Source of the DNA: Fictibacillus sp. FJAT-27399
GTDB lineage: Bacteria > Bacillota > Bacilli > Bacillales > Fictibacillaceae
DNA: 64,000 bases
Direction of reading: 5' to 3'
Assembly (NCBI RefSeq): GCF_001510655.1
Contig: NZ_LMVC01000002.1
Span: 1,594,388-1,658,387 of the forward strand
This document shows positions 13,439-32,850 of the stretch, one piece after another (positions within the stretch are counted from its first letter, which is position 1; every line of letters begins with the position of its first letter). Under the pieces are notes generated by a model. It made no database searches. It saw only the letters and a list, made by a program, of their open reading frames with translations, and was not told the origin of the DNA. A program made the translations under genes and the position numbers.

Positions 13439-13571
13439 GCTGTTCCTCCTCATACACTATTGTGGTTAGTATTTACCCTATTTCTAATGAAATAACACTC
13501 ACAAACCTCTTTGGACAGACATAATCTTTTTTTTAAAAAATAAAAATAGTGTTGGAAGGAGTTGATTGCCT

Positions 13572-14027
13572 ATGGTGGAAGATTACAATAATCAGGAGCA
13601 GACGGATGAAAGAAACTGGGCACAGATGCACAATCTTTGTAAGCAGCACTTGTATTTTCATGTGATTATTACCATGCATGATGGCAAGAAAACGGAAGGG
13701 ATCATTACAAATGTGGATGGCCAGAATCTCCATATGATGGTTCCTCAGGACATTCAGCAGCCGCAACAGGGCGGGCAAGGGAGCCAGCAAGGAATGCAAG
13801 GCCATCAGGGCATGCAGGGAACACAAGGAATGCAAGTGCAACAAGGAATGCAGGGGCAGCAGGGGGCTATGGGAAGAGAGGAAAATGAAGAAAATCGTGT
13901 ATTTTTTGGCCGGCCATGGTTTGGAAGAAGGTTTTTTCCAGGGATATTTCCCCTTGCCGCTATAGCTGCACTCTCTCTATATCCTTATTACTATCCGTAT
14001 CCTTATTACCCTTATCCTTATTATTGA
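13572..14027 (+). CDS. Low-complexity protein: Sm-like N terminus, Gly-Met-Gln repeats, Tyr/Pro tail
   Basis: Residues about 20-60 form a hydrophobic, strand-rich piece (LYFHVIITMHDGKKTEGIIT, then NVDGQNLHMMVP), reminiscent of small Sm/KOW-type barrels. Residues about 64-100 are a repeat of Q-G-M-Q units. An aromatic patch (FGRPWFGRRFFPGIFP), a short hydrophobic stretch, and a tail of YPYY units end the protein. Similar composition occurs in spore-coat and surface proteins, which is only a hint. Start: ATG 13572 with AAGGAG 10 nt upstream; a TTG at 13566 is possible. The gene overlaps the end of the facing transporter by 7 nt. Confidence 0.7.
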   Translation: MVEDYNNQEQTDERNWAQMHNLCKQHLYFHVIITMHDGKKTEGIITNVDGQNLHMMVPQDIQQPQQGGQGSQQGMQGHQGMQGTQGMQVQQGMQGQQGAMGREENEENRVFFGRPWFGRRFFPGIFPLAAIAALSLYPYYYPYPYYPYPYY

Positions 14028-14968
14028 TGACCAGCTGGTTCTCCAGCTGGTTTTCCATTGGGTGCTTCTTTCTTGTTTTCCATTTCCTCAATTGCCTCTT
14101 CTTCCTCTTTCAGAACCCCCTCATCTAGTTCTTCTTTGTAAGCATATGACAACAGCAGGGATACAAGTATACCGCCGCCGATTAGATTGCCGATACTTGC
14201 TGGAACCAGATTAAGCAGAATAAACTTATACCAGCTGATATCAAAGCCTTCAATGACGGATATACTGAAATAGCCCATGTTGGCCACAGCGTGCTGAAAG
14301 TTTCCGGCTTCGAAAATGATAACAGGCAGAGCAATACCGAGAATCTTGCCAACCACATCTCTTGCGGCGGTAGCAAGAACCGCTGCTGCTCCGATTAGCC
14401 AGTTTGCCAAAATACCTGAAAAAAGAACCTGAAACCAGCCCCAAGTTCCTCTATGTGTAAATTCCATTTTCTTTTCTACGAATGTGAGCAGGTAATCATA
14501 GAATTCATCGTGCAGCGAGCCTGAAAGGTTTAAAAGAAAACCGACAAATAGAGCGCCCACAAAATTTCCAGTGTAACAGATAAGCCAAAAGGACAGCAGT
14601 TTTTTGCTGATCCAAAACTTGCTCTGCATGATATAACTGGGCAAGAGTATGTTTACTTCCGTAAATAATATGGAACCTGATAAAAAGACCATCGCGTAGC
14701 CAATCATAAATCCGATACCAGCCATTAAATTCACAATGCCGGCCGATTCAATGTCCATTGTCAATAATACTGAACCTAGAGCTCCAAAAGCGATAAAAGC
14801 TCCTGCCAGACTGGATAGAATTAATTGTGCCAAATAAGTGGTTTGTATGGATTCTTTTCCTTTTCTAATAAACGTTTCAACGATTTGGGCAGGGAAATAA
14901 TATTGTCGCTCAGGATATTTTTGGGGAGTTTTAGGATGCGCGTTTTTCTGTTCGGATTTATTATTCAT
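14021..14968 (-). CDS. Formate/nitrite transporter (FNT) family channel
   Basis: The 315-residue protein has an about 45-residue hydrophilic N terminus, six membrane helices, and FNT marks: LAGAFIAFGALGS, GSILFTEVNILL, SGILANWLIGAA and the His-containing NFQHAVANM filter region. FNT pentamers pass formate, nitrite or other small anions. The C terminus is acidic and ends with a short PAGEPAGHQ repeat. ATG follows GGAAATGGAGG. An about 800-nt upstream region carries tandem structured repeats and inverted repeats, suggesting leader RNA control. No formate dehydrogenase or nitrite reductase is nearby, so the substrate is open. Confidence 0.87.
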   Translation of the reverse strand: MNNKSEQKNAHPKTPQKYPERQYYFPAQIVETFIRKGKESIQTTYLAQLILSSLAGAFIAFGALGSVLLTMDIESAGIVNLMAGIGFMIGYAMVFLSGSILFTEVNILLPSYIMQSKFWISKKLLSFWLICYTGNFVGALFVGFLLNLSGSLHDEFYDYLLTFVEKKMEFTHRGTWGWFQVLFSGILANWLIGAAAVLATAARDVVGKILGIALPVIIFEAGNFQHAVANMGYFSISVIEGFDISWYKFILLNLVPASIGNLIGGGILVSLLLSYAYKEELDEGVLKEEEEAIEEMENKKEAPNGKPAGEPAGHQ

Positions 14969-15018
14969 TTGGGACCTCCATTTCCTGTAACTTAGTTTCC
15001 CTTCAAGTCCTCCTCGTC

Positions 15019-15090
15019 AAACAGCGTCTTATTTAAAATACAAAAATAAGACGCTGTTTATGTAAATTAACATAAACTTGCGCCTTATTT
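15019..15090 (-). promoter_or_regulatory. Three-part inverted repeat in the FNT leader
   Basis: In the minus-strand RNA the order is s1 (15074-15090, AAATAAGGCGCAAGTTT), s2 (15044-15059, AAACAGCGTCTTATTT) and s3 (15019-15034, AAATAAGACGCTGTTT). s2 can pair perfectly with s3 over 16 bp, or with s1 to form a long stem extended by GTTTATGT/ACATAAAC. The s1:s2 hairpin is followed by a T-rich stretch and would work as a terminator. The two pairings exclude each other. It lies about 50 nt before the FNT start codon. Confidence 0.6.
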
Positions 15091-15191
15091 AAAATACTTG
15101 CTATTCACTTGTTGATTTTCCTTTCTTTACTTAGAACACATGCCTTGCATCACTTGCAGACTTGCATCTTTCAGTTTATTTTCTCCTTTTT

Positions 15192-15292
15192 GGCTTCCCA
15201 CATGCCACATGATGCGAAAATAGTTTTCACGGACTATTTCCTAATGCGCCATGATCCTAGCATGCTTCGCTAACTTTTGTCATCGGAACCAC
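15192..15292 (-). ncRNA. Tandem structured RNA unit 3 (nearest the FNT gene)
   Basis: Read on the minus strand: 5' GGTTCC, core GTTAGCGAAG, helix P1 arm CATGCT (15259-15264), apical stem GGAAATAGT/ACTATTTTC with loop containing CCGTGAAA, P1 return arm GGCATG (15201-15206), TGGGAAGCC end. Helices match units 1 and 2 while several base pairs differ. Type and ligand unknown. Confidence 0.6.
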
Positions 15293-15322
15293 GTCCTCTG
15301 AAGTTTTAATGTTTCCATTTTT

Positions 15323-15424
15323 GGTTTCCCACATGTCCACATATCTCAAAACCAGTTTTCACGGGCTGATTTTTTAGTGGATATGATTTTGACATGCTTC
15401 GCTAACTTTTTTCATTGGAATCAC
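15323..15424 (-). ncRNA. Tandem structured RNA unit 2 (middle)
   Basis: Read on the minus strand: GATTCC, the same GTTAGCGAAG core, P1 arms CATGTC (15391-15396) and GACATG (15332-15337), a further CATATC/GATATG helix, apical stem AAAATCAG/CTGGTTTT with loop CCCGTGAAAA, then TGGGAAACC. Compared with unit 3 the P1 pairs C-G and T-G become T-A and C-G, and the apical stem has compensating changes. Confidence 0.6.
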
Positions 15425-15462
15425 GCCTTTAAAAAGGATGTATGGATAAATGTTGCTTGGCA

Positions 15463-15555
15463 GATTCGGAAGACCCGCATACTGTGCCTGTTAAATAGTT
15501 TAACTATTTGTATAGGCCTGTTTAGCATGCTTCGCTAACATTCTTCATTGGAATC
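15463..15555 (-). ncRNA. Tandem structured RNA unit 1 (promoter-proximal, most diverged)
   Basis: Read on the minus strand: GATTCC, GTTAGCGAAG core, P1 arms CATGCT (15524-15529) and AGTATG (15478-15483), apical hairpin AAATAGT/ACTATTT, then CGGG and a closing GAATC that pairs with the 5' GATTC. Core-to-core distance to unit 2 is 133 nt and from unit 2 to unit 3 is 132 nt. A TATTAT/TATAAA element at about 15575-15582 is a possible -10 upstream; no clear -35 is visible. Confidence 0.55.
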
Positions 15556-15773
15556 TACTCCCTTCTTTTGTTTCGTTTATAATACTCTATGTGAAGATAA
15601 ATTAAAATATTCAGAATAATCTATTTTGTCTGATTTTAAGCGTTTTTGCTTGCTTCTGCCTTTTAGAACAGGTTTTTTTATAGAATTCCTGCTTTTTTCT
15701 CAAAATTCAACAAAAACAATATAAAATCTTCATAAAATAAGCAAAATCTTTTCTTTTCTCCACAGCAACAAGC

Positions 15774-32688: not shown

Positions 32689-32724
32689 AGCTACTTTCCA
32701 AACTGTCCCTTTCTTCCTGTATAA

Positions 32725-32850
32725 CGCTTACGAGGTTAGCTGCCGGATTAGGAATTGGAAGTATCCCTTCTTATTTCTAAGATTCACCCCAAAAAAGTGG
32801 TTCCCCCGCTCTTAACAAGATCTTTAAAATTAAGCGATTTAAAGGCTATG
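32725..32850 (-). ncRNA. c-di-AMP riboswitch (ydaO/yuaA class)
   Basis: The minus strand carries the conserved blocks in order: CGCTTAATTTTAAAGA, GTTAAGAGCGGGGGAACC, TTGGGGTGAATC, GGGATACTTCCA, AATCCGGCAGCTAACCTCG and a closing CGTAAGCG, which pairs with the start. These match the ydaO/yuaA family. Ligand binding should favour the downstream terminator and turn ktrC off when c-di-AMP is high. Confidence 0.92.

Follow-up and report, generated by a model that had tools for sequence, protein, structure and literature searches.

In bacterial attenuators, the short ORF for a leader peptide has its stop within a hairpin, and translation and folding of the leader are mutually exclusive. Leader attenuators, like riboswitches, normally control a linked gene, and sponge RNAs of the CsrB/RsmZ type carry repeated ANGGA sites in hairpin loops that bind the protein CsrA. 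ORFs of only one or two codons have been described as well. In particular, expression of the bar minigenes of phage lambda (AUG-AUA-UAA) is toxic, and a nascent chain of fewer than 7 residues may leave as peptidyl-tRNA (PMC8012679); the two-codon mini-ORF mg2 of axe-txe acts in cis via translation, possibly shielding the mRNA from an endonuclease (PMC8708949); and the AUG-UAA minimum ORF of plant NIP5;1 stalls ribosomes (PMC11915504). VcdRP of Vibrio cholerae is a dual-function sRNA that encodes one protein of 29 residues (PMC8672173).

Here we analyse a locus within a 64,000-nucleotide stretch of DNA from Fictibacillus sp. FJAT-27399 (the window), together with its relatives in other Bacilli. 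The locus is an array of tandem modules, and it shares something with each of the short-ORF systems above. Like lambda bar, one class of its modules has a two-codon ORF behind a Shine-Dalgarno sequence (SD); unlike bar, the minigenes are tandem and chromosomal, each is tied to a conserved hairpin, and they have their own predicted terminator. Whereas bar expression is toxic, no toxicity is known for the array RNA. The two-codon ORF also recalls mg2, but mg2 serves a downstream toxin gene whereas the arrays lack a constant downstream gene. AUG-UAA start-stop modules like that of NIP5;1 occur in two relatives (L182 and L178), although the NIP5;1 element is a boron-sensing plant 5' leader and the arrays are bacterial, structured and tandem. 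As in attenuator leader peptides, the stop of a short ORF reaches into a hairpin; unlike attenuators, the array family has no common regulated gene, and its codons show no enrichment for a single regulated amino acid. The array resembles VcdRP in being a small RNA with coding content, but it carries several ORFs, most of which have 2 or about 8 codons, and its terminal peptides are unconserved. To our knowledge, tandem structured minigenes in a stand-alone RNA match none of the known kinds. The features of the window locus are as follows.

15579..15607, minus strand: proposed promoter, with -35 TTTTAA (15607-15602), a 17-nt spacer and -10 TATTAT (15584-15579)
15,187-15,565, minus strand: three-unit array, about 132 nt per unit, with the core GTTAGCGAAGCATG in each
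15468..15565, minus strand: unit 1, with SD GAAGGGAG and P1 arms at 15530-15524 and 15483-15477
15522..15548, minus strand: micro-ORF 1, MKNVSEAC, with NTG, SD and stop
15322..15432, minus strand: unit 2, with P1 arms at 15397-15391 and 15337-15331 and the loop CCCGTGAAAA
15374..15415, minus strand: micro-ORF 2, MKKVSEACQNHIH and a stop, 13 codons, neither 2 nor 8
15191..15300, minus strand: unit 3, with P1 arms at 15265-15259 and 15206-15200 and the loop TCCGTGAAAA
15257..15283, minus strand: micro-ORF 3, MTKVSEAC, with NTG, SD and stop
15085..15108, minus strand: terminal micro-ORF, MNSKYFK, with a GTG start, SD AGAAAGGA upstream and its stop in the 5' arm of the terminator stem
15041..15090, minus strand: predicted intrinsic terminator AAATAAGGCGC...GCGTCTTATTTTT, a stable hairpin and T run

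The core is found at 15526-15539, 15393-15406 and 15261-15274 on the minus strand, with no further copy in the window when up to 2 mismatches are allowed; three copies were reached by 1 of 100 shuffles, and in the whole 4.5-Mb genome the core occurs at these three places only (up to 1 mismatch). The P1 arms read GCATGCT/AGTATGC in unit 1, GCATGTC/GACATGT in unit 2 and GCATGCT/GGCATGT in unit 3, and cmsearch with our second covariance model (R2) scored the three units at 61.4 bits (E 1.2e-15), 111.4 bits (E 1.4e-30) and 87.3 bits (E 2.1e-23), respectively. The original prediction of three minus-strand units with a common core thus holds in the window and in the genome, as do the P1 arms that it gave for all three units and the apical loop CCGTGAAAA that it placed in units 2 and 3. 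The feature is, however, larger than had been proposed, running on the minus strand from the proposed promoter (15607-15579) to the terminator (15090-15041), and its four micro-ORFs had gone unmentioned beside the repeats. Each of the window cores sits within or just 3' of a micro-ORF with an SD, and a translation start can thus be read in part of the conserved TTCCNATGA...GTTAGCGAAGCATG block.

Relatives were sought by exact core and by covariance model. A scan of public genome contigs for the exact core gave at least 118 stretches, 20 of which have the wider consensus (among the matches listed, these are 19 Paenibacillus/Paenibacillaceae records and Fictibacillus terranigra); the remainder were treated as chance. 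Model R1 found the element in 26 of the 34 genomes of the window's family, the 8 genomes without it all being from one genus. R1 also matched 31 of 199 genomes of the order, 6 of which we judged false by reading or score (G040, G196, G086, G204, G039 and G169). With R2, 26 of 398 genomes of the class matched, 5 of them doubtful and dropped as weak (G226, G272, G286, G449 and G452), and the 4 matches among 398 genomes of the phylum all lie inside the class. Of 12 genomes reached via named loci, 7 gave a match (Rossellomorea vietnamensis and F. macauensis are among them), with none in Bacillus atrophaeus, two Lysinibacillus, P. bouchesdurhonensis or Peptoniphilus vaginalis. The array is therefore found in Fictibacillus, Rossellomorea, Paenibacillus and other Bacilli, with 1 to 7 units per array by model and 11 by reading in L182.

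The modules form a structured RNA family with a covarying helix P1. In 131 distinct units, two-sided changes occur in 6 of the 7 stem pairs and 98.3% of cells are paired; the P1 covariation score of 0.441 was reached by 0 of 500 shuffles, and controls in which the helix was slid gave at most 0.071, in alignments fitted to a covariance model, which favours P1. (Alignment A5 comprises 72 chosen sources, near-duplicates excluded.) Moreover, a MAFFT alignment alone of the R1 seed already contains two compensating pairs. The consensus is GCAUGYY/RRCAUGY, with variants such as GUGUAU/AUACAC. The selected RNA structure that had been proposed from compensating changes is thus borne out by many homologs with strong covariation, as a covariance-model search had been expected to show. 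Note that the window units taken singly fold only moderately (z-scores of -2.0, -1.4 and -1.5), so the covariation argument as first made needed homologs. Because the outer helix P0 (UCC/GGG) scarcely changes, inner pairs included, covariation cannot test it. Extended P0 duplexes gave -6.9 kcal/mol when matched versus -6.3 kcal/mol when permuted, with 29 of 5000 permutations as good; support for P0 is thus modest, and we dropped it as a proven helix.

Tandem copies, of which there are up to 11 by reading in one relative, might be expected of a mobile or dispersed repeat without function. The practically negligible probability that we assign to this explanation reflects the presence of one locus per genome in the 26 positive family genomes (in the window's own genome, this locus only), the conservation of covarying structure and promoter across families, and the outcome of blastn with the window array, which matched none of the 72,556 plasmid and 50,697 phage records searched. 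A phage or plasmid origin was rejected for want of such a match. A mobile or repeat family lacking covariation, which had been named as what would overturn the original prediction, is likewise at odds with a single locus and a covarying P1.

The array had been proposed to be a leader of an FNT transporter or of metal or anion transport genes, at a fixed location before them. An FNT gene (Pfam PF01226) adjoins the array in 10 of the 20 loci tested, all of them from Fictibacillus (six genomes) and on the same strand. There is no obvious promoter in the roughly 70 nt between the terminator and the FNT start, so read-through could feed FNT in Fictibacillus. The other 10 of the 20 loci, however, have no FNT within the fetched flanks, and F. 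macauensis (L158) and L139 have none in about 1.5 kb around the array and keep part of the window's gene neighbourhood. Elsewhere the arrays have neighbours that often lie on the other strand and include cardiolipin synthase-like, GNAT-like and lut-like genes (gene names being what we take the translations to indicate), and a terminator-like hairpin ends the window RNA before FNT. The link to FNT is limited to Fictibacillus loci; the idea of an FNT leader thus fails for the family, and we consider a cis-regulatory role for the array in FNT expression extremely unlikely. Neither the proposed fixed location nor, more generally, the constant position and coherent same-strand gene set by which a riboswitch or leader would be recognized was found, and neighbours vary by lineage. 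Such elements should not be named after a transporter that they happen to precede. (A hydrophilic 153-aa ORF with no Pfam match, at 13566-14027 on the plus strand of the window, stays near the array in relatives both with and without FNT.)

The same variation in neighbours bears on the possibility that the modules are tandem switches, in each of which a ligand, tRNA or protein would bind the internal loop and set the opening of the SD and start codon. Switches of this kind would account for the long conserved internal loop between two helices, for the tandem copies and for an SD that adjoins the outer helix; the genes next to the arrays nevertheless vary and often lie on the other strand, and we regard this reading as improbable.

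From the SDs, start codons and stops described next, we strongly infer that the micro-ORFs would be translated. Following a conserved CC(A/G), the start codon is ATG in 106 of 134 units, TTG in 22, GTG in 5 and CTG in 0, and is lost in 1. Pairing of the SD with the anti-SD (the letters of which we assumed) has a mean energy of -11.8 kcal/mol and is -6 kcal/mol or better in all 123 distinct units. By comparison, random NTGs gave a mean of -2.9 kcal/mol, with 15% at -6 or better, and dinucleotide shuffles of the same purine-rich 17-mers gave a mean of -8.1 kcal/mol, with 75% at -6 or better. The ORF has 2 codons in 44 of 112 unique units, 8 codons in 32, and some other length (3 to 40 codons) in 36, among them unit 2 of the window; the 44 units that combine an SD with a two-codon ORF, which is how we define a minigene, include no window unit. 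AAR and ACN account for most second codons. A stop at codon 3 coincides with one at codon 9 in only 1 of the 112 unique units (Fisher p=8.7e-8), and after clustering this exclusion has p=1.4e-6 (72 clusters), 1.2e-4 (45 clusters) and, at the harshest clustering, 0.018 (28 clusters), p-values that are optimistic because units are related by descent. At the same array position in two species of one genus (L140 and L144), ATG-AAA-TAA...CAA in one is matched by ATG-ACG-CAA...TAA in the other. Extra nucleotides between the start and AGCGAAG are present in 14 of 43 units that have already stopped versus 6 of 65 others; the notion that insertions are confined to stopped units is therefore wrong. For 109 of 134 units, the distance from the start codon to P1 is 18 nt, which would bring P1 roughly to the leading edge of a ribosome at initiation. 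ORFs of 1, 2 and about 8 codons appear to be maintained as a design feature of an RNA family of the Bacilli.

Many lineages of the eight-codon class keep VSEA(C/Y), as would be expected of a small dual-function RNA in which the octapeptides (M-K/T-x-V-S-E-A-C/Y) had an activity of their own, for instance as signal peptides. We nevertheless consider active octapeptides very unlikely, given that 44 of the 112 unique units stop after 2 codons and keep the same downstream nucleotides, and that the peptides of the terminal ORFs are unlike each other. In L182 (771-1900, minus strand), two-codon modules (MK) alternate with eight-codon modules (MENRKAKA) in an array of about 11. This array is preceded by a 38-codon ORF, the end of which (MYQWYMGMYYHYYP) resembles one in L178.

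Its two ends give the array the look of a self-contained gene, with a conserved box at a proposed promoter on one side and a predicted terminator on the other. The candidate promoter of the window overlaps the conserved box TTCTGAATATTTTAA, and 41 of 71 arrays have the box GAATAT[TC]T[ACT] (around GAATATTTA) no more than 260 nt ahead of unit 1 (the L043 instance is probably chance), against an expectation of 0.015 per 260 nt in the same loci. With TTTTAA and TATTAT as -35 and -10, the RNA would start about 15 nt before unit 1. A generic sigma-70 scan of the window did not list the proposed promoter site. CodY was considered as a regulator, but its motif and the box are only loosely alike. Beyond the array, the window's own genome holds one exact copy of the box, in a frame resembling isoleucyl-tRNA synthetase, which we took as chance on account of its place; with the sole extra genomic copy inside a coding frame, we rejected the idea that the box marks a regulon.

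Towards the 3' end, 38 of 40 arrays have a further ORF, with an SD, an NTG start and 6-8 codons, that stops at the base of the terminator stem, versus about 1 expected from mononucleotide shuffles, in a set of terminators placed by hand (40 of 72 sources), partly by reading beside the ORF. (Placement by hand was adopted because an automatic terminator search missed or misplaced many.) The terminal ORF has 7 codons in 27 of the 38 arrays, and its peptides are dissimilar (MNSKYFK, MLEEAIT, MTEEEII and MYIQNNT), so the features kept are length and place rather than sequence. In the window, the region 15030-15150, with the terminator hairpin, folds to -27.1 kcal/mol (z -3.3). A generic terminator scan of the window found none, which we ascribe to pairing of the T run within the stem. 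Note that at 15018-15063 (minus strand) the 3' arm of the terminator can instead pair with a downstream second copy, AAATAAGACGCTGTTTG. This alternative hairpin (14968-15062; about 17 bp, -31.4 kcal/mol) competes with the terminator, and may act as a switch for read-through or be left over from a duplication of the terminator.

The interpretation that we favour, while rating it somewhat short of an even chance, is that the array is a stand-alone sRNA gene whose tandem minigene modules load ribosomes and hold them. Such a gene would run from a promoter about 15 nt ahead of the first module, through 1 to 11 modules in tandem, to a terminator. Each module would be a folded translation-initiation unit, with a strong SD and an NTG in the large internal loop between P0 and P1, and its stop would come after 2 codons in one main class and after about 8, inside the 5' arm of P1, in the other; the last micro-ORF, of 6-8 codons, would end at the terminator base. 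With a start codon flanked by P0 and P1, and with longer ORFs entering P1, translation and folding would have to compete. Peptides vary and start, length and hairpin position are constant, so the selected trait seems to be ribosome loading and release rather than the peptide. Initiating ribosomes and initiator tRNA would be held on the modules, or short peptidyl-tRNAs would drop off as with the lambda bar minigenes, and the multivalent trap would damp translation when the shared promoter is active; both the trapping of ribosomes and this physiological role are put forward as hypotheses. More tentatively, and as something we find possible but doubtful, the sole product of a chromosomal array of structured minigenes may be translation initiation and early termination, making it a tunable sink for ribosomes or initiator tRNA, governed by a common promoter, in Bacilli. 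Each hairpin-tethered start codon would then capture one ribosome, array length would be the capacity of the sink, and the terminal minigene would couple translation to the 3' end of the RNA. If the modules are translated, their product would be translation itself, without a useful peptide. Were this true, the array would be a natural chromosomal counterpart to the minigenes of phage lambda and of one toxin-antitoxin operon, and would offer a testable way for a cell to tune ribosome availability.

A pure trap leaves two strongly conserved elements unexplained. Conservation of the GNNAGCGAAG block is the same whether a unit's ORF stops ahead of the block or reads through it, and the block is thus an RNA-level signal; a GUGAAA apical loop (GTGAAA in DNA) is present in 78 of 134 units. 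Since neither element has a role in a pure trap, we give substantial weight to rivals in which target mRNA, protein or ligand is bound. One of these is a trans-acting, base-pairing sRNA, the tandem seeds of which would be the GNNAGCGAAG bulge and the GUGAAAA loop, pairing with target mRNAs; the SDs and micro-ORFs would merely load ribosomes and thereby stabilise the RNA. Conservation of GNNAGCGAAG in both ORF classes, the recurrence of the loop and a stand-alone gene with a terminator all speak for base pairing, which on its own nevertheless leaves the restriction to NTG, the exclusive stops and the terminal ORF of 6-8 codons unexplained. We hold it to be unlikely, though a serious contender to ribosome trapping.

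The original claim that the array belongs to no known RNA family stands against Rfam 15, which gave nothing at gathering threshold over the window array or in 16 + 15 relatives' loci. Neither a description of the array family nor, judging by title among the papers listed, anything relevant to its literal motif strings was found in the open-licence literature searched. As far as these searches go, the array family thus appears to be new as an RNA family. The last ~130 nt of the window RNA scored 28.4 bits with the Listeria sRNA rliH (RF01460), with clear similarity in the terminator hairpin; the gathering score is 100 over a 429-nt model, most of which was skipped. In the order, rliH weakly matched 1 of 150 genomes, and a B. 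subtilis control also gave a sub-threshold match. Membership of the array in rliH was therefore rejected, the match being sub-threshold and essentially one of terminators. CsfG, a sporulation sRNA, was likewise considered and set aside, and nothing was found of its sequence in the open-licence literature. An RNA-seq study of P. riograndensis reports 27 small RNAs, most with unknown function (PMC5670726), and an earlier sighting of the array RNA may be among them. In Paenibacillus arrays, for example L188, L193 and L195, CCATATGC...GGACATGG and CCATGTC...GGATATGG seem to form a long-range helix in the 3' part, and an ATCACC/GGTGAT stem opens the 5' end; the full Paenibacillus RNA may therefore have structure beyond the modules. 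Elsewhere in the window, a c-di-AMP riboswitch (RF00379, 97.4 bits) lies at 32710-32846 on the minus strand.
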